Source: Rhodocaloribacter litoris
GTDB lineage: Bacteria > Bacteroidota > Rhodothermia > Rhodothermales > ISCAR-4553
Assembly (NCBI RefSeq): GCF_011682235.2
Contig: NZ_CP076718.1
Span: forward strand, 1,637,141 to 1,701,140
Length of the DNA: 64,000 nt
Direction: 5' to 3'
In this document: piece after piece, positions 42,539 through 55,127 of the stretch
How positions within the stretch are numbered: the first letter of the stretch is position 1
Layout: each line of letters begins with the position of its first letter
Translations under genes and position numbers: made by a program
Notes under the pieces: model-generated
Told to the model about the DNA's origin: nothing
What the model saw: the letters and a program-made list of their open reading frames with translations, nothing else
Database searches by the model: none

Positions 42539-42725
42539 TCCTTCCGTTTCCTCGGCCGTACAACGGAGCAGGCGCCGTTTCCTTCGCCGAATCTTTACCC
42601 GAATCCGGCCGCTGCCGGTAGTCATCCCGGATCGCTGGCGGACTATCAGAACACCTTCCCGCACGATACCGGATGACCTTCACCAGCCCACGCATGCCGG
42701 ACAACCCATCGCTACGACCCGATCC

Positions 42726-43295
42726 ATGCCATCCGGACCGCCGCCTGAGGAACTCTGCCGGCGCCTGAAAGCCTCCGACCGCGAGGCATTCGAGGCCATC
42801 TTCCGGCTTTTCCGGGGGGATCTGCTCCGGTTCGCAACCGCCATCGTGGAAGACGCGACGGTGGCGCACGACCTGGTACAGGATGTGTTCGTGTCGCTGT
42901 GGGGCCTGCGGGAAACGCTCGACCCCTCGAAATCGCTCCGGGCCTACCTCTTCCGGATGACGCGCAACCGGGCCTACCGTCATCTGCGGGACGAGCGTAC
43001 CCATGCCCGCAAGCACACGCAACTCGGCGACGAGGCCGCCGCCCGTCCCCCTGCCGAGGTGACCAACGGCCATGACGCCGCGCTGCTGGCGGACCGGCTG
43101 CAGGCGTGGATCGCGGCCCTGCCGGCCCGGCAACGGGAGGCCCTGCTGCTGAGCCGCTTCCACGAACTGAGCCATCGCGAGATCGCCGCCGTCATGGACA
43201 TCTCGCCGCGCACGGTGAACAACCACATCGTGCGGGCCCTGGAGCACCTGCAGCGGTGTCTTGAGGCTTTCGAACCGTCCTTGCTTGAACGATGA
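42726..43295 (+). CDS. ECF sigma factor, FecI-like Bacteroidota type
   Basis: The 189-aa sigma-70 family factor has region 2 (FRLFRGDLLRFATAIVEDAT, HDLVQDVFVSLWGLR) and region 4 (FHELSHREIAAVMDISPRTV, NNHIVRALEHLQRC), joined by a short linker. Together with the downstream FecR and TonB receptor it forms a cell-surface signalling unit. Its stop overlaps the FecR start by 4 bp, so sigma and anti-sigma are made together. Confidence 0.92.
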   Translation: MPSGPPPEELCRRLKASDREAFEAIFRLFRGDLLRFATAIVEDATVAHDLVQDVFVSLWGLRETLDPSKSLRAYLFRMTRNRAYRHLRDERTHARKHTQLGDEAAARPPAEVTNGHDAALLADRLQAWIAALPARQREALLLSRFHELSHREIAAVMDISPRTVNNHIVRALEHLQRCLEAFEPSLLER

Positions 43296-44344
43296 AAGAA
43301 GAACGATCCCGGTCGATCCCACCGGAGGTGCAGGCGACGCTGGAGGCCACGGCCCCGGAAGCGCGGCAACGCCTGGAGAAGATGTGGCACCTGCTCACGC
43401 CCCGGGAAATCCCCGCCGGAAGCGTGCCGGACGACGAGGCGGCCTGGGCCGACCTGCAGGCACGGCTCGACGCCGCCGGCGCCGGAACGCCGGACGCACC
43501 CACCTCCGATCCACGCCGCCGGGCCGCCGGCCGCCCACCCGTACGGCGACGACGCCCGCACCCACACCGTCACCTCCTTCCCGTTTCCGTCCTCCTCGTG
43601 CTGGCGCTCGGCCTGGGGCTGTGGTGGTGGCACCGGCCGGTCACCGTGACGGTCCCGCCGGGCCGCCAGCTGACCGTCACCCTGCCCGACGGCTCGACGG
43701 TCCACCTCAACAGCGACACGCGCCTGTCGTATGCCCGGGGCTTCCGGACCTGGCCGCTCGTCGACACGCCGCAGCGCCGCGTACGGCTCGACGGGGAAGC
43801 CTTCTTCGACGTGAAGCCGGGCAGGCGTACGTTCGTCGTCGAAACGTTCAATGCCCGGGTGGAGGTGCTTGGCACCCGGTTCAACGTATGGGCCCGCGCG
43901 GAGGCCCCGGCCCGCGAGACCCGTGTGACCCTGGCCGAGGGGCACGTGCGCGTCCTGGACGCCGGTGCACCGGAACAGGCCGTCGAACTCCGTGAGACGG
44001 GCCACGCCGCCCGTGTGACGGACGCGGCCCCGTCGCCGCTCCCCCAGCGGGCCGGGCCGGACGCCCTCGAAGCCGCCACCGCCTGGCGACGGCAGGGCTT
44101 CACCGCCGTCAACCAGCCGCTCTCGGCCATCCTGGCGGAGCTGCAACGCCGGTATGCCCGCGACCTCGGCGCCGAACCCGGCATCGCGCTCACCGATTCC
44201 CTGACCCTCCTTTACCTCCGGCCCGTGCCGCTCGAAGCCATCCTCAAGGACCTCTGCCTGGTGCAGGGTTGCCGCTACCGCCCCACAAGCCGGGGCTTCG
44301 TCCTGATCCCCGGCACACCGGCCGCGTCGTCGCCCTCCCCGTAG
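43292..44344 (+). CDS. FecR-family anti-sigma regulator
   Basis: The 350-aa protein has a cytoplasmic N-terminus (about 90 residues) and one membrane helix (LLPVSVLLVLALGLGLWWW). The periplasmic FecR domain follows (VTLPDGSTVHLNSDTRLSYA, RRVRLDGEAFFDVKPGRRTF). The C-terminal DUF4974/STN-like part is NQPLSAILAELQRRYARDLG. It should hold the ECF sigma factor inactive until the TonB receptor signals. A linker rich in Arg/Pro precedes the membrane helix. Confidence 0.92.
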   Translation: MKEERSRSIPPEVQATLEATAPEARQRLEKMWHLLTPREIPAGSVPDDEAAWADLQARLDAAGAGTPDAPTSDPRRRAAGRPPVRRRRPHPHRHLLPVSVLLVLALGLGLWWWHRPVTVTVPPGRQLTVTLPDGSTVHLNSDTRLSYARGFRTWPLVDTPQRRVRLDGEAFFDVKPGRRTFVVETFNARVEVLGTRFNVWARAEAPARETRVTLAEGHVRVLDAGAPEQAVELRETGHAARVTDAAPSPLPQRAGPDALEAATAWRRQGFTAVNQPLSAILAELQRRYARDLGAEPGIALTDSLTLLYLRPVPLEAILKDLCLVQGCRYRPTSRGFVLIPGTPAASSPSP

Positions 44345-44385
44345 GCCGTGTGACACGTCCCATACGCCGGATGTCCCCGCCAGCC

Positions 44386-47166
44386 ATGCTTCCCCGAATC
44401 CGCCCCTTCGCCCGGCTCATCGTCCTGCTGATGGTGCTGTGCCCGGTGACGGCCCGGCCCGGCGACACCATGGGACAGCCGCGTGAAGGCGAGGCGTACA
44501 GCCTGGTGTTCCGGGGCACCCCGCTCGACCAGGCGCTCGAAGCACTCGTGCGCCTCACGCGGATCGACCTGGTCTATTCCACGGAGCAGGTTGCGGGACG
44601 CCGCGTGTACTGCACGGGCCGGGAACTGCCGGCCGAAGCCCTCCTGCGGTGCGTGCTTGCCGGCTCCGGGCTCGACTATGTTCGCTCCTCCTCCGGCGCC
44701 TATGTGCTGATCGAGGCCCGCAACGCCCCGGCCCTCTTCGGAGACCTTGCCGGCCAGGTCATCGACGGGGAAACCGGGGTGCCGCTGCCGGCGGCCAACG
44801 TGCTGCTGGCCGAAGCCGCCACCGGCACCACGACCAACGACGCCGGCTTCTTCAGCTTTGCCGGGCTGGTCTCCGGCCCCTACCGCGTGGTGGTCACCTA
44901 CGTCGGCTATGAGACGGCCCGGGACAGCGTCTGGGTGGCCCCCGGCGCCCGCGCCCGCCTGCAGGTCCGCCTCCGGCCACGTACCGTGCCGATGCACCCC
45001 ATCGTGATCGACGGCCTCAGCCAGCGGCTCCCCTCCCGGATGCTGGGCTCCGGAGAGGCCGGGCCACAGGCGCTGGCCTCGGTCACCTTCGCCGGCACCC
45101 CCGACGTGGCACGCGGCGCCGGCCGCCTGCCCGGCGTGGCGGCCACCCAGCCCCTGGCCGACCTGCACATCCAGGGTGGCGGCGGCGGGGAACACCTCAC
45201 CCGCCTTGACGGCATCCCCGTGCGACACCCGGTGAGCCTGGGACGACATCTCGGTGCCTTCAGCCCCCTGGCCCTGCGGCGCCTCGTCGTCCACAAGGCC
45301 GGCTTCGGCGTGGAACACGGCAGCCACCTCGCCGGCCTCGTCGCCGCCGAACACCACGTGAACGGCGAACACCGGCTGGCCGTGAGCCTGGACCCGATCA
45401 GCGCGAACGCCCGAACCCACGCCCGCCTCACCCTGCCCGGCAAACGGCCGATGGACCTGATGTTCGCCGGACGCACCGGCCTGTGGGCCCAGTACCAGGA
45501 CCCCGGCGTCGCCGCCCTGCTGCGCCGCTGGAACAGCGTAGACCCGCAACTGGCCGGCCGCTGGCTGGGCCAGCCGGTGACCACCCGCTCCTTCGCCGTG
45601 TTGCACCCACTCCCCGACGTAGCCTTCTCCGACCTCCACGCCGCCCTCCGCCTCACCCCCGCCGCGTTCCACCTCATCGACGCCTCCGCCTATCATGCAC
45701 GCAACCGCATCCGGGCCGACCTGACAGGACTGAACCGGCTGGAAAACACCACGGAAGACCGCCTCATCCTCACCCGCGACGATTACGACTGGTCGAACTG
45801 GATGGGCCAGGCCCGGTACAGCCGCCTGCTCGGCGCCCACGCGGTGCTGACCGTGCAGGCCGGCGGCAGCCGCCACACATCACGCTACAGCTACCGCGCC
45901 CTGCAGACGAACGTCCTCCGGGGCACCTACACGGACGACAACCTGGAACAGGCACGCAACCGGTTCGAAGAGGCGTTACAAACCAGCTACGTCACCTACG
46001 AACACAACGCCATCCGGGAGGTGACCGTACGGGCCGTCCTCAGCCACAGCCTCGCCCCCTCCCGGCAGTTCGAAGCCGGCCTGTTCGCCAGCCACACCGA
46101 CAGCGAGTTCAACCTGAACAACCAGTTCATCCCCGCCTTCTGGTACCACGGCTCGGCCTGGACCGGCGGCACCTACCTGAAGGGAACGCTGGCTCCGGGA
46201 TGGCACCTGACCCTGGAGCCCGGCCTCCGCCTGACGTATGCCGCCCGCCGCCGCACGGTCTATGCCGAACCCCGCCTGGCCCTGCGCTATGACCGCGAAA
46301 CCGGACCGCTCGGCCCGTACGCCCTGCGCCTGGCCGCCGGCCTCTACCGGCAGTTCGTCAACCAGTTCGAGCTGACCAGCTCCGGCCCAACCGCCGCCGT
46401 ACCGTCCGTCCCCTTCTGGCTTCCCATCGACCGCACCCTCGCCCCGCCCCGCACCTATCACCTGGCCGCCGAAGCCCTGCTGATGCCGTCCACGGCCTGG
46501 ACGATCCGGGTGGAAGGCTACTACAAAGCCCAGCCGCGCCTGCTCACCATCGACTATGCGACGCTGGTCAAACTGCTCGAGGCCGGCCCCCGCACCCCCC
46601 TGCCGCAGGCCACCTTCATCGCCTCAACCCACGGCCGTGCCTTCGGGGGCAGCCTGCGCGTCGTATACACGACGCCCCGCCTCACCGCCGGCCTCGACTA
46701 CGCCTTCAGCCGCGCCGTCCGCCGCTACCCCGGCCGTTTCGACGACCGCCTCGTCCCGGTTCCCTGGAATGTCCCCCACCGCCTCACCGCCGACCTGAAA
46801 GTATCCCTCTCCGATCATCTCTCCCTCCACCTCACCGGCGAAGGGGCCCGGGGACGCCGCTGGGCCCTGCGCCAGGCCTACTACGACTACCTCGCCCTCG
46901 GAGGCCTGCTGCCGGACGCCGGCCCCTTCGACCTCGACCGACCCGACGACCACCGGCTGCCCGCCTACCTCCGCCTCGACGCCGGCCTGGCCTACACCCA
47001 CACCCTGGGTCCCGTCAGCCTGCAGGCGCAGTTCTACCTCGTCAACCTGACGAACCACCGCAACGTCTACGACCAGAGCCTCGAAACAACCGGCACCACC
47101 GTACGCACGGTCGACCGCCTCCTGCCCGGCCGCTACCCCGTCTTCGCCATCCACCTCGACTACTGA
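44386..47166 (+). CDS. TonB-dependent receptor with STN and carboxypeptidase-like domains
   Basis: The product is 926 aa with a signal peptide (about residues 1-25). The STN domain (YSLVFRGTPLDQALEALVRL) receives or gives the signal to FecR. A carboxypeptidase-regulatory-like domain follows (AGQVIDGETGVPLPAANVLL), then a plug (GRLPGVAATQPLADLHIQGG) and a 22-strand barrel ending in an aromatic residue (FAIHLDY). It is the outer-membrane sensor and importer of the sigma/FecR unit. No SusD gene is nearby. The start could also be 44371. Ligand unknown. Confidence 0.88.
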   Translation: MLPRIRPFARLIVLLMVLCPVTARPGDTMGQPREGEAYSLVFRGTPLDQALEALVRLTRIDLVYSTEQVAGRRVYCTGRELPAEALLRCVLAGSGLDYVRSSSGAYVLIEARNAPALFGDLAGQVIDGETGVPLPAANVLLAEAATGTTTNDAGFFSFAGLVSGPYRVVVTYVGYETARDSVWVAPGARARLQVRLRPRTVPMHPIVIDGLSQRLPSRMLGSGEAGPQALASVTFAGTPDVARGAGRLPGVAATQPLADLHIQGGGGGEHLTRLDGIPVRHPVSLGRHLGAFSPLALRRLVVHKAGFGVEHGSHLAGLVAAEHHVNGEHRLAVSLDPISANARTHARLTLPGKRPMDLMFAGRTGLWAQYQDPGVAALLRRWNSVDPQLAGRWLGQPVTTRSFAVLHPLPDVAFSDLHAALRLTPAAFHLIDASAYHARNRIRADLTGLNRLENTTEDRLILTRDDYDWSNWMGQARYSRLLGAHAVLTVQAGGSRHTSRYSYRALQTNVLRGTYTDDNLEQARNRFEEALQTSYVTYEHNAIREVTVRAVLSHSLAPSRQFEAGLFASHTDSEFNLNNQFIPAFWYHGSAWTGGTYLKGTLAPGWHLTLEPGLRLTYAARRRTVYAEPRLALRYDRETGPLGPYALRLAAGLYRQFVNQFELTSSGPTAAVPSVPFWLPIDRTLAPPRTYHLAAEALLMPSTAWTIRVEGYYKAQPRLLTIDYATLVKLLEAGPRTPLPQATFIASTHGRAFGGSLRVVYTTPRLTAGLDYAFSRAVRRYPGRFDDRLVPVPWNVPHRLTADLKVSLSDHLSLHLTGEGARGRRWALRQAYYDYLALGGLLPDAGPFDLDRPDDHRLPAYLRLDAGLAYTHTLGPVSLQAQFYLVNLTNHRNVYDQSLETTGTTVRTVDRLLPGRYPVFAIHLDY

Positions 47167-47379
47167 ACCGGCGCCTCCGGCACTCCGCGTAGTCATCCCC
47201 CCGGCTTCGCGTACTTCCCGGAAAACCATCGCCCGGCCTACCCGGCAGACGGCGTGAAGCGTATGAGAGGTTGAAGTAGACGGCAACGCGCATCACGCCT
47301 CCGGCGAACCACCCCGCCCCCGAACGGCACCAACGCGCCCGCGGCCGGGCTCCTGTACCATCAACTCCGGAGAATACCT

Positions 47380-49968
47380 ATGCGCCCCCGTTCCCTTCTC
47401 ATCGCGCTGCTGCTTTCCCTCGCCCTGCTGCCCGGCACGGCCCTGGCCCAGACCTTCCTCACCGGCACTTTTTCGGCGGCCCAGGAGACGCACGACGTCA
47501 CGAGCGAGGCCACCGGCACCGCCGCCCTCGCCGTCACCGACGAAGGCGTGCGGTTCCTGATTACCGTCGAAGGACTCAGCGGTCCGATCTCCGCCGCCCA
47601 CTTCCACAACGCCCCCGCCGGGGAAAACGGCCCCGTCGTCCGAACCATCACCGGCGACTTCTCCGGCAACACCGCCTCCGGCCTCTGGACCAGCGCCGAC
47701 ACCGAACCCCTCACCGGTGAACTCCTCCGCGAACTCCTCGCCGGAAACCTCTACCTCAACGTCCACACCGCCAACAACCCCGCCGGCGAAATCCGGGCCC
47801 AGCTACATCCCACCTCCGGGGCCGGGCTTTCGGCCCGGCTGACGACCGCCCAGGAGACGCACGACGTCACGAGCGAGGCTACCGGCACCGCCACGGTCCT
47901 GGCGACGAAAGCGGGAGTTCTTTTCTTCGCCACGGTGGACGGGCTGAGCGGCCCGATCTCCGCCGCCCACTTCCACAACGCCCCCGCCGGGGAAAACGGA
48001 TCCGTCGTCCGAACCATCACCGGCGACTTCTCCGGCAACACCGCCTTCGGCCTCTGGACCAGCACCGACACCGAGCCCCTCACCGGTGAACTCCTCCGCG
48101 AACTCCTCGCCGGAAACCTCTACCTCAACGTCCACACCGCCAACAACCCCGCCGGCGAAATCCGCGGGCAGGTCCTCCTCAGCAGCGGCTGGGGCTTCAA
48201 CGCCACGCTCGATCCGGAGCAGGAGACGCACGACGTCACGAGCGAGGCCACCGGCACCGCCACGCTGACGCTCACCAGCGAAGGCCTCGCCTTCAACCTC
48301 ACCGTCGAAGGACTCAGCGGTCCGATCTCCGCCGCCCACTTCCACAACGCCCCCGCCGGGGAAAACGGCCCCGTCGTCCGAACCATCACCGGCGACTTCT
48401 CCGGCAACACCGCCTCCGGCCTCTGGACCAGCACCGACACCGAACCCCTCACCGGTGAACTCCTCCGCGAACTCCTCGCCGGAAACCTCTATCTCAACGT
48501 CCACACCGCCAACAACCCCGCCGGCGAAATCCGCGGGCAGATCCTCCCCAGCGGTGGGACGCCGCTCTCGGCCCGGCTGACGACCGCCCAGGAGACGCAC
48601 GACGTCACGGGCGAGGCCACCGGCACCGCCGCCCTCGCCGTCACCGACGAAGGCGTGCGGTTCCTGATTACCGTCGAAGGACTCAGCGGCCCGATCTCCG
48701 CCGCCCACTTCCACAACGCCCCCGCCGGGGAAAACGGATCCGTCGTCCGAACCATCACCGGCGACTTCTCCGGCAACACCGCCTCCGGCCTCTGGACCAG
48801 CACCGACACCGAGCCCCTCACCGGTGAACTCCTCCGCGAACTCCTCGCCGGAAACCTCTACCTCAACGTCCACACCGCCAACAACCCCGCCGGTGAAATC
48901 CGCGGGCAGGTCCTCCTCAGCGGGGGAACGCCGCTCTCGGCCCGGCTGACGACCGCCCAGGAGACGCACGACGTCACGAGCGAGGCCACCGGCACCGCCA
49001 CGATGACGCTCACCAGCGAAGGCCTCGCCTTCAACCTCACCGTCGAAGGACTCAGCGACCCGATCTCCGCCGCCCACTTCCACAACGCCCCCGCCGGGGA
49101 AAACGGCCCCGTCGTCCGAACCATCACCGGCGACTTCTCCGGCAACACCGCCTCCGGCCTCTGGACCAGCACCGACACCGAACCCCTCACCGGTGAACTC
49201 CTCCGCGAACTCCTCGCCGGAAACCTCTACCTCAACGTCCACACCGCCAACAACCCCGCCGGCGAAATCCGCGGGCAGGTCCTCCTCAGCGGCGGCATCG
49301 GAGCAGCCACCAGCCTTGACCCGGAGCAGGAGACGCACGACGTCATGAGTGAAGCGGCGGGTACGGCGGCCCTGACGCTTGCAGATGCCGGGCTCGTCTA
49401 TCGCATGACCGTGGACGGGCTGAGCGGCCCGATCTCCGCCGCCCACTTCCACAACGCCCCCGCCGGGGAAAACGGCCCCGTCGTCCGAACCATCACCGGC
49501 GACTTCTCCGGCAACACCGCCTCCGGCCTCTGGACCAGCGCCGACACCGAACCCCTCACCGGTGAACTCCTCCGCGAACTCCTCGCCGGAAACCTCTACC
49601 TCAACGTCCACACCGCCGCCTACCCCGCCGGCGAAATCCGCGGGCAGGTCCTGCCGGACGGGGTGGTCGTCACGGCCGTCGAGCGGGTGGACGATGTGCC
49701 TCCGGTCACCTACCGGCTCGAACCGAACTACCCGAACCCTTTCAAGGGCACCACCACCATCACCTTCGCGCTCCCCCGTACCACCCGGGCCCGCCTCGAC
49801 ATCTTCAACGTCCTCGGGAAACGGGTGGCAACCCCGGTGGACGGAACCCTGACGCCGGGCACCTACGCGGTCACGTTCGACGCGTCACGGCTTCCGTCGG
49901 GCGTCTATCTCTATCGCCTGACGGCCGACGGCATCACCCGAGCACACCGGATGACCGTGATCCGGTAG
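47380..49968 (+). CDS. Secreted six-CHRD-repeat protein with T9SS sorting tail
   Basis: The 862-aa protein has signal MRPRSLLIALLLSLALLPGT. Six tandem CHRD domains follow, each 123 residues, with core AAHFHNAPAGENGPVVRTIT and NLYLNVHTANNPAGEIR. CHRD domains were named from chordin; their function in bacteria is unknown. The C-terminus (NYPNPFKGTTTITFALP through LPSGVYLYRLTADGITRA) is a T9SS type A tail. It lies 213 bp after the TonB receptor on the same strand and may be regulated with it. Repeats are nearly identical even at the DNA level. Confidence 0.88.
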   Translation: MRPRSLLIALLLSLALLPGTALAQTFLTGTFSAAQETHDVTSEATGTAALAVTDEGVRFLITVEGLSGPISAAHFHNAPAGENGPVVRTITGDFSGNTASGLWTSADTEPLTGELLRELLAGNLYLNVHTANNPAGEIRAQLHPTSGAGLSARLTTAQETHDVTSEATGTATVLATKAGVLFFATVDGLSGPISAAHFHNAPAGENGSVVRTITGDFSGNTAFGLWTSTDTEPLTGELLRELLAGNLYLNVHTANNPAGEIRGQVLLSSGWGFNATLDPEQETHDVTSEATGTATLTLTSEGLAFNLTVEGLSGPISAAHFHNAPAGENGPVVRTITGDFSGNTASGLWTSTDTEPLTGELLRELLAGNLYLNVHTANNPAGEIRGQILPSGGTPLSARLTTAQETHDVTGEATGTAALAVTDEGVRFLITVEGLSGPISAAHFHNAPAGENGSVVRTITGDFSGNTASGLWTSTDTEPLTGELLRELLAGNLYLNVHTANNPAGEIRGQVLLSGGTPLSARLTTAQETHDVTSEATGTATMTLTSEGLAFNLTVEGLSDPISAAHFHNAPAGENGPVVRTITGDFSGNTASGLWTSTDTEPLTGELLRELLAGNLYLNVHTANNPAGEIRGQVLLSGGIGAATSLDPEQETHDVMSEAAGTAALTLADAGLVYRMTVDGLSGPISAAHFHNAPAGENGPVVRTITGDFSGNTASGLWTSADTEPLTGELLRELLAGNLYLNVHTAAYPAGEIRGQVLPDGVVVTAVERVDDVPPVTYRLEPNYPNPFKGTTTITFALPRTTRARLDIFNVLGKRVATPVDGTLTPGTYAVTFDASRLPSGVYLYRLTADGITRAHRMTVIR
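47485..49650 (+). repeat. Six in-frame CHRD units with an exact 369-bp period
   Basis: The anchor GAGACGCACGACGTCA recurs at 47485, 47854, 48223, 48592, 48961 and 49330, always 369 bp apart. Long blocks within the units are identical in DNA, and differences cluster in the first third of each unit. The last unit is the most divergent at its start (near 49345) and has AAY in place of ANN near its end. Confidence 0.95.
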
Positions 49969-53516: not shown

Positions 53517-53559
53517 AAGCGCCCGTCCCCGCGTCACGTTCTGGCGGGGACGGGCGCTT
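53517..53559 (+). terminator. Strong hairpin ending the MarR operon
   Basis: A perfect 16-bp stem (AAGCGCCCGTCCCCGC at 53517-53532 with 53544-53559) has an 11-nt loop. It lies 38 bp after the DoxX stop. The T-run is weak (CGCGTTTGG). Confidence 0.7.
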
Positions 53560-53719
53560 CGCGTTTGGCCCTCTGATGCCGCCCTGCCTTCCCATTCCGC
53601 CGTCCCCTTCGTATATAGGATACAGCCTTTCTTGACCGCACCGGCGGTGCCTCCGTCGTCCCCGTCAGGTCGTTGCGGCCGGGCCCTTCTGCCCCGATCC
53701 ACCGCTGGAGGACACCGCC

Positions 53720-54481
53720 ATGACCTATGGAGAACGTATCATCGCAAGGGGAGCGCAGGGCCCGGATGTGGAGGAGCTTCAACTGCGCCTGGCCGGCTTC
53801 CGCGGCACCGTGCCCGACGGCGACTTCGGCCCGATCACCGAGATGCAGGTGATGACGTTTCAACGGGACGTGATGGGTCTCGACGCCCCGACCGGCATCG
53901 CCGACGGCGACACGCTCCGCGCCATCGACGCCTTCGCCGACGCCTTCCCGCTCGACTTCGACGCGCTCCGGTGCCCGTGCGGCGTCTGCCCGGGCTTCGG
54001 GCGGGGACGCTTCCGGGGGAGCTATCGCGGCGGACGCCCGCACATCGAGGCCTTCCACCGGTACGAGTATCCCGGCCTCCACCGGATGCTCCTCTGGGCC
54101 GTGCGCGCGGTTTTTTTCTACCTCCCCCAGTACCGTTTCCTCATCACCTCGGGCTACCGGTGCGGCGTGCGCAACCGGCAAACCGGCCGCACGAGCACCA
54201 ACCACCACGGCAAGGCCATCGACATCGACGTGGCCCGGCGGCCGGGCGAGGACAAGCGCGACGACATGAACCGGTGCGACGAAATCCGGGGGCTCATCGT
54301 GCAGCGCTCGAACGCTCAGCTCGGCTGGCTCGCGCCGAACATGAAGGCGCTCGAGCCGGCCCACATCGCGCCGACGTGGGTGCACTACGACGTGCGGAAC
54401 TACGCCCCGCGCTACCTCGAGGACCGCTTCTTCTGCACCGACGCGGCCACGCTCGACCGGCGCCTCCCGATTCAGGTCTGA
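53720..54481 (+). CDS. Peptidoglycan-binding, M15-type D,D-peptidase-like protein
   Basis: The product is 253 aa, preceded by GGAGGA (53707-53712). Residues 1-75 form a PG_binding_1 domain (QGPDVEELQLRLAGFRGTVP, DGDFGPITEMQVMTFQRDVM). The C-terminal M15A-like zinc peptidase domain has ITSGYRCGVRNRQTGR, STNHHGKAIDIDV (His and Asp ligands) and WVHYDVR (last His). A Cys pair (CPCGVCPGF) lies between. There is no signal peptide. The architecture resembles phage endolysins and cell-wall enzymes; no other phage gene is near. Confidence 0.85.
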   Translation: MTYGERIIARGAQGPDVEELQLRLAGFRGTVPDGDFGPITEMQVMTFQRDVMGLDAPTGIADGDTLRAIDAFADAFPLDFDALRCPCGVCPGFGRGRFRGSYRGGRPHIEAFHRYEYPGLHRMLLWAVRAVFFYLPQYRFLITSGYRCGVRNRQTGRTSTNHHGKAIDIDVARRPGEDKRDDMNRCDEIRGLIVQRSNAQLGWLAPNMKALEPAHIAPTWVHYDVRNYAPRYLEDRFFCTDAATLDRRLPIQV

Positions 54482-54690
54482 GGCCCCGATGACGGGTTGT
54501 TCCGGTCCCGCCCCCACCGTGCGGGGTTGGCGGCGATGTAGGCGCGAATGCGCCGGAGGTCGGCGGTGTCCCGGATGACGTGCTCGTAATAATTGCGTTG
54601 CCAGAGGGCCGCGCCGGGGGTCCCGCGGATGGCATTGATGCGTTTGGTGGAAACGGTTTTGAACGCCCCGATCAACCGGCCCAACGGTTT

Positions 54691-54770
54691 GCGTTTCACC
54701 GAACCCGTCCGCCCTGCCGCATCGCCCGTAGCGTTTCACCGAACCCGTCCGCCCTGCCGCATCGCCCGTA
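54691..54770. repeat. 40-bp perfect tandem duplication
   Basis: Units 54691-54730 and 54731-54770 are identical (starting GCGTTTCACCGAACCCGTCC). The length is 3n+1 and accounts for the frameshift in the transposase. Confidence 0.97.
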
Positions 54771-54795
54771 GGGGCGGTTCGCGAACCGCCCCTAC
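54768..54795. repeat. Perfect 28-bp palindrome inside the RAYT gene
   Basis: Half-site GTAGGGGCGGTTCG (54768-54781) is followed by its exact reverse complement. It encodes a GGSRTAPT-like linker in the transposase frame and resembles a REP palindrome. Confidence 0.85.
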
Positions 54796-55127
54796 CGCCG
54801 CCCATTCCACCATCATCCACATCCCCCATGACGATGATCCCATGCAAATGATCGGGCATGACGACCCACGCATCCAATGCGACGTACGGGTATTGCGCCG
54901 CCAACCACGTCCATGCCTCCGCGACGATGCGCCCGGCGGCGGACAACCGCACTGCTCCGTTCACCACCTCACCAAACAGGCAGGCCCGGTCCCGGACACA
55001 CAGGGTGACGAAATACGCCCCGTCCCGCGTGTAATCGTACCCGCGCAGCCGGATGGACCGGCGATGGTGTCGCTCCGGGTCGTAAGGCATCGGGTGATCC
55101 TCGTTTCAGAAAACCGCCACCGCCCCG

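Follow-up and report, generated by a model that had tools for sequence, protein, structure and literature searches.

The CHRD domain is known mainly from an animal developmental protein. A crystal study of chordin (PMC13382577) describes the CHRD domains of that protein as SOD-like, without visible metal, and as binding glycosaminoglycans. Tandem surface domains of high DNA identity have been described as Periscope Proteins, and the source (PMC8201768) ties high repeat identity to variation in repeat number. In the open-licence literature we found no function for bacterial CHRD arrays, no report of such arrays with T9SS, nothing linking CHRD with copper, and nothing that treats YceI, Rieske, b561 and CHRD together.

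The array considered here lies in a window of 64,000 nucleotides from Rhodocaloribacter litoris, and coordinates refer to this window unless a relative is named. The gene, CHRD6, resembles chordin in that each of its units is a CHRD domain (PF07452) and the units stand in tandem, and differs from it in being bacterial, in having six units and in ending with a T9SS tail. Its parts are as follows.

47380..49968, + strand: CHRD6 gene, 862 aa, a single open gene with a signal peptide, six CHRD units and a T9SS type A sorting tail
47452..47820, + strand: unit 1, placed by anchor spacing
47821..48189, + strand: unit 2, placed by anchor spacing
48190..48558, + strand: unit 3, starting with WGF like unit 3 of the homologues L038, L128 and L132
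48559..48927, + strand: unit 4, with columns 53-131 equal to unit 1 and read as a recent copy
48928..49296, + strand: unit 5, a mosaic with columns 77-130 equal to unit 3 and columns 1-51 equal to unit 4
49297..49665, + strand: unit 6, placed by anchor spacing
47452..47583, + strand: first third of unit 1, position-specific (columns 1-132; likewise in units 2-6), strands 1-3
47584..47795, + strand: homogenised core of unit 1 (columns 133-344; units 2-6 at +369 each), strands 4-8 and helix, with HxH, NVHT and GEIRGQ
49729..49941, + strand: T9SS sorting tail (Por_Secre_tail, Pfam)

The signal peptide was read from the sequence. Pfam finds six CHRD stretches in the protein (E 7.6e-170, 556.1 bits against a gathering score of 24.1), and the C-terminal type A sorting domain scores above the cut-offs of both PF18962 (38.6 bits, cut-off 27) and TIGR04183 (40, cut-off 23), as is characteristic of T9SS cargo. 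The first-pass annotation had proposed six CHRD units with an exact 369-bp period, and this is confirmed: two anchor sequences occur six times each, all five spacings are exactly 369 bp for both, and TRF reports a repeat at 47479-49652 with period 369 and 5.9 copies, so that the array is real and far beyond chance. The accompanying description of the DNA as near-identical is valid for the core only, because whole units are 80.5-92.7% identical in pairwise comparison; at the protein level, adjacent units are 77-90% identical. Variation had been placed in the first third of each unit, where it is indeed found (26 variable columns in columns 1-30, 5 in 31-60 and 43 in 61-132, as against 10 of the 212 columns in 133-344), but a further 16 lie in columns 345-369. 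The variable part is thus the first third plus the last 25 bp, which join into one stretch over each unit junction; within it, columns 31-60 form a homogenised patch.

For comparison we used the end-to-end homologues L038, L128, L132 (the same gene as L056), L039, L040, L041 and L042, labelled in that order as Rhodothermales, same order (G026), Roseithermus, Deltaproteobacteria, Calditrichaceae, Phaeodactylibacter and Eisenbacteria, with the proviso that MAG labels may be wrong. L038, on the same contig as G001:C255, is the nearest record of the same family and is referred to below as the sister genome.

Directly upstream of CHRD6, in the same order as in the sister genome, lie genes for an ECF sigma factor, a FecR regulator and a TonB-type receptor, the three components that together mark a signalling regulon.

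42619..42644, + strand: promoter-like motif TAGTCAT-N14-GGACT, upstream of the ECF sigma gene
42726..43295, + strand: ECF sigma factor (TIGR02985)
43292..44344, + strand: FecR anti-sigma regulator (Pfam)
44269..47166, + strand: TonB-dependent outer-membrane receptor/transducer with a CarboxypepD_reg domain, start codon uncertain
47190..47215, + strand: promoter-like motif TAGTCAT-N14-GTACT, upstream of the CHRD6 gene

Pfam finds only the CarboxypepD_reg part of the receptor, and its barrel is presumed from SusC-type similarity and operon context. As in FecI/FecR/FecA-type signalling, sigma factor, FecR and receptor share one operon; unlike that arrangement, a second and separate promoter-like site of like type precedes a surface protein array, which in some genomes is unlinked to the operon on the chromosome.

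Alignment of the upstream regions shows that GTAGTCATCCC precedes both the ECF and the CHRD6 genes, and these are the sole two places in the window at no more than one mismatch. Other loci revealed a bipartite motif whose gap is always 14 bp; generalized to TRGKCAY-N14-GNNCT, it is present in 17 of 25 upstream regions, a count that is partly circular because the motif was first found by eye and its fourth base was then widened from T to T/G after genus g4 had been seen; with gaps of 10-13 or 15-18 in place of 14, none of the 25 matches. Many of the 25 regions served to define the motif, while the L129 CHRD and L132 Rieske sites, which match the narrower form, did not. Among CHRD frames, 9 of 63 carry the motif upstream, where shuffling would give 0.24 and the opposite strand gives 0, and these nine are both six-unit genes of the window's family together with all seven of the three-unit genes (7/7), in whose genomes the CHRD gene is not beside the ECF operon. 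Genome-wide, TAGTCAT-N14-GTACT (at most one mismatch) occurs exactly twice in each of G003 and G017, before the ECF operon and before the CHRD gene, about 1.5 Mb apart; G008 likewise has two copies of the strict motif (at most one mismatch), one ahead of the ECF operon and the other ahead of an operon whose last gene is CHRD6. The window genome has 10 matches to a looser pattern against 3 for the reversed control. In the other genomes, single matches elsewhere mean little, because the reversed control gives about as many.

The motif was not found upstream of the ECF genes of L137, L143, L144 and L146, nor directly upstream of the CHRD genes of L128, L131, L132 and L143; searches for sigma-70 promoters and terminators returned none and one respectively, numbers that shuffled sequence also gives. 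In 4 of the 11 ECF loci read (the window, L038, L137 and L143, in the last after a fasciclin gene) a CHRD gene lies behind the receptor; this does not amount to a rate because the loci were chosen from the best receptor matches. At the level of sequence, CHRD6 has the same promoter-like site as the sigma factor's own operon, and this shared motif argues strongly that CHRD6 is a target of the neighbouring ECF sigma/FecR/TonB-receptor system. We read it as the probable surface output of a cell-surface-signalling regulon.

The genes that accompany these sites in relatives were also considered. In G008 the motif-preceded operon consists of Rieske, cytochrome b561-like, YceI and CHRD6 genes. In G003 the receptor is followed by Rieske, b561-like and YceI genes, and the motif stands ahead of the Rieske gene; the b561 call falls just short of the Pfam cut-off (22.9 against 23). 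In G007 the motif is near YceI genes and a gene for a lipoprotein with weak resemblance to cytochromes. No b561-like member is present in the window genome. The third motif of that genome precedes a DNRLRE/CBM96-type T9SS protein, an apparent homologue of which (compared by eye) is preceded by the single one-mismatch motif of G001; in L039 and L040 a homologue of this protein, 43% identical, is the next gene after CHRD6. In the sister genome, a multihaem cytochrome gene (L038 7900-9354) directly follows CHRD6.

Other neighbourhoods hold further features. At L130 9752-13145, genes for a DtxR/MntR-type regulator and a ZnuA-type metal ABC transporter come after a three-unit CHRD gene; we considered this linkage as a general rule and dropped it, as the regulator adjoins in only 4 of the 7 g4 species' loci. 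Elsewhere in the window, a 40-bp direct repeat in two identical copies (54691-54771) lies inside a frame at 53534-55090 on the - strand, the start of which resembles a REP-associated transposase.

A model of a single unit (pLDDT 93.4) has eight strands and one helix, the first third supplying strands 1-3 and the core strands 4-8; the full-length model is less certain (pLDDT 79, pTM 0.73), and we propose no ring or superhelix for the protein as a whole. The best PDB matches in Foldseek are nearly all Cu,Zn SODs, with probability 0.98 but E 0.03 and none reaching E 0.001, and VIA gives Z of about 10 for one unit of the full model against Candida SOD5 and Bacteroidetes SodC. On these models, the units are predicted to form the SOD-like eight-strand Greek key. 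Chordin is absent among the best 50 Foldseek and the best 50 VIA matches listed, which is no evidence against kinship. A profile of the units finds the chordin chains 9qvv, 9igm and 9rd6 at E of about 1e-15 to 1e-16; it finds SodC weakly (E 0.26-0.4), with HxH aligned to the SodC HxH, and hhalign against the relatives' SodC gives probability 85.6 over the same stretch. The units thus share with Cu,Zn SOD (PF00080) the Greek-key barrel and the aligned HxH, and differ from it in having no long metal loops, no evident fourth copper histidine and no Sod_Cu Pfam match.

In SOD, the histidines of HxH are copper ligands. The histidine of NxHT in the units would correspond to another ligand, on strand 7; this assignment follows from the strand order of the model and the ligands of SOD1, because the global hhalign alignment left NxHT unplaced. 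Of 246 units, 237 retain all three copper-ligand-like histidines and 244 the arginine of GEIRGQ; the aligned chordin domains are without both HxH and NxHT. No fourth SOD copper histidine was seen among the conserved residues of the units, the protein has no PF00080 match, and NCBIfam SodCCaul scores 46 bits against a cut-off of 250, so that CHRD6 has neither the Sod_Cu profile nor the four copper ligands of a Cu,Zn SOD. Sod_Cu itself has no match in the window genome or the sister genome, and is present in 14 of 30 relatives.

It is quite possible, although we lean slightly the other way, that CHRD6 is a purely structural surface protein for adhesion or matrix with no bound metal, its histidines being structural leftovers of the SOD fold. 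The missing fourth histidine would fit this, as would chordin CHRD, which binds glycosaminoglycans and shows no metal (PMC13382577). The near-universal retention of HxH, the third histidine and the arginine is harder to reconcile with it, and so are the redox proteins among the regulon neighbours in relatives. A surface metal or redox role, as these residues and neighbours might suggest, remains our best guess for CHRD6.

The first-pass annotation also held that recombination homogenises the array, and for the cores this is borne out. At 4-fold silent sites, the divergence between units of the window gene is 5.6% for the core (n=709) and 33.3% for the first third (n=258), whereas that between the window gene and the sister genome, compared at the same unit position, is 42.8% for the core and 54.7% for the first third. 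Recombination is supported because core silent sites are nearly alike between units while differing at 43% from the sister genome, and constraint on the protein alone, to judge from these comparisons, could not yield such likeness. Runs of identity in the window gene form mosaics, with a stretch of unit 1 in unit 4 (53-131) and stretches of unit 3 (77-130) and unit 4 (1-51) in unit 5.

Two further cases are independent of the window gene. G044 has three units, of which 1 and 3 have a core tract in common; relative to HFH it spans -9..+203 (about 212 bp) if a single mismatch is permitted in either direction. Unit 2, lying between them, resembles neither, and in the six sister species of the genus the cores of units 1 and 3 have an identity of 0.68-0.85. 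This is conversion, because a crossover between units 1 and 3 would have deleted unit 2. In G032, 227 bp are identical between two units (-21..+206). The tract edges are alike in the three lineages, on the left about -15, -6/-9 and -21/-24 bp from HxH and on the right 11-23 bp past the start of GEIR. We take these tracts to indicate core-biased gene conversion in at least three lineages. Across CHRD frames, homogenisation favours the core often but not always: of the 53 multi-unit frames with enough sites, 36 have lower silent divergence in the core than in the first third (sign test p 0.013), and 17 do not, including three species of the three-unit genus. Conversion occasionally reaches the first third as well, as in window units 4 and 5.

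In contrast to the cores, the first thirds keep their place in the array. For ten six-unit genes, compared in all pairs, the true unit order was ranked among the 720 possible orders. First thirds rank 2 for window-L038, 1 for window-L128, 2 for window-L132 and 1 for L038-L132, where cores rank 73, 123, 39 and 206. With the remotest homologues the first-third signal weakens or disappears (window-L041 21, window-L039 43, window-L042 151 and L038-L042 297 of 720), and the first thirds of L131-L134 match each other by position (1 of 720) and not the window-type arrays. In a unit tree, units group mostly by gene, with unit 1 of the window gene and of L038 together (100/99), the close pair L039-L040 paired position by position, and the units of L010 scattered.

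There is also a pattern within the genes. Pairing of first thirds at lag 3 (1-4, 2-5, 3-6) ranks 1 of 15 in the window gene, L038, L039, L040 and L041, second in L042, 8 in L128 and L132, 7 in L131 and 14 in L134; in the window gene the signal stems partly from the copy of unit 1 into unit 4, and lag 3 also ranks 1 of 15 when cross-species comparisons only are used. Taken in order, the units of the three-unit genes correspond to positions 1, 5 (with 2 as second choice) and 6. The simplest history would be a triplet ABC doubled to ABCABC, and loss from six to three is a possible alternative. On these comparisons, the first third is not hypervariable and keeps instead a position-specific identity with an ABCABC pattern. 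The earlier suggestion that the variable part faces a ligand is unsupported in that form: because silent sites differ too and position identity is kept between genera, the first third looks like the part that escapes conversion and not like a diversified binding face. We also considered that adjacent units are kept apart against misfolding, and dropped the idea, as first-third dN is not clearly different between adjacent and non-adjacent units (by eye).

An account that asks for no selection on the first third deserves a hearing, and we regard it as a real possibility that falls some way short of convincing us. Conversion would simply halt at sequence that is too divergent, the edge near GLSG being a by-product of heteroduplex rejection. 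The sister species of G044, taken as the pre-conversion state, already have first thirds more diverged than cores, and the excursions of conversion into the first third in the window gene and the reverse cases among the multi-unit frames also point this way, but the account does not readily explain similar left and right tract edges in three lineages, nor the survival of position identity between families.

Unit number was compared between species, one genome per species, the window family being represented by two genomes of two genera; genes cut by contig ends (L045, G016, G375) were left out. On this basis, six units are present in 8 of 8 complete end-to-end homologues, window gene counted, and three in 7 of 7 species of the related genus g4, so that the copy-number variation originally proposed finds no support between species. 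The other CHRD frames (66 distinct frames) have 1 to 8 units, with four in L152 and eight in L043, and six is therefore a property of this subfamily and not of CHRD arrays. A fixed six with unit phylogenies following the species had been named as the pattern that would tell against the first-pass reading; it is found for the unit number and the first third, and not for the core. L131 and L134 have a second, divergent kind of six-unit CHRD array, and in a further six-unit array, L161 (G175), several units lack HxH and the third histidine.

With these counts, we think it unlikely that CHRD6 is a Periscope-type stalk in which unit number changes fast between strains to vary reach, six being merely the number in this genome. 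The repeats do pass the threshold for such proteins in PMC8201768 (>50 residues, at least 80% identical) with a mean unit protein identity of 82.4%, and the exact period, the high DNA identity that this source ties to number variation, the surface export tail and the range of 1 to 8 units in other CHRD frames are all what one would expect of a stalk. Unlike Periscope Proteins as described there, however, CHRD6 has a unit number that is constant between species and genera, unit identities that are ordered, and conversion mainly in a sub-domain core, and Pfam finds no separate adhesive tip domain in the window protein. The clustering of units within genes in the unit tree might suggest that tandem duplication, not conversion, recently re-expanded a single unit in this lineage; this is highly improbable and is ruled out by the position-by-position match of first thirds between the window gene and L038, whose unit 1 sequences pair and which also has six units.

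Taken as a whole, the data make it probable that CHRD6 is a fixed-order six-domain surface protein with converted cores, driven by a dedicated ECF system. The protein is built for export to the surface and consists of exactly six CHRD domains of SOD fold, the fixed order of which resembles a doubled triplet, ABCABC. As the sequences show, short non-reciprocal conversions within the gene overwrite the unit cores (strands 4-8, with the invariant HxH, NxHT and GEIRGQ) without changing unit number, while the first thirds keep their position-specific identity. A signal sensed at the outer membrane would lead to release of the sigma factor, which would then transcribe its own operon and CHRD6 via TRGKCAY-N14-GNNCT. 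Less certainly, the conserved core may carry a shared working site, probably a metal site because of the SOD fold and the three copper-ligand-like histidines, and we propose that conversion there would therefore be harmless or useful, whereas the first thirds would have to differ, since contacts between neighbours or the domain order would depend on them.

A bolder reading, which we offer as speculation and consider rather doubtful, is that the CHRD units of bacteria form a second class of metal domain built on the SOD fold, with three-histidine copper-type sites held six-fold on the surface and made on demand by the ECF system, in relatives together with Rieske, cytochrome b561-like, YceI and haem proteins, as an outer-surface metal/redox device in which conversion keeps the six cores alike and the first thirds fix their order. 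If this were true, chordin would belong to a line that lost the metal site.

CHRD6 presents an ordinary domain in an unusual setting, a fixed and ordered six-domain surface protein with what is likely a dedicated ECF regulon. It separates homogenisation of DNA from change in repeat number, which are commonly treated as one: conversion acts mainly on a core within the domain, and over wide distances the domains keep their number and order. For bacterial CHRD arrays it supplies a regulator, a promoter and partner genes that can be put to the test, and for the CHRD domain a simple prediction, that of metal binding.
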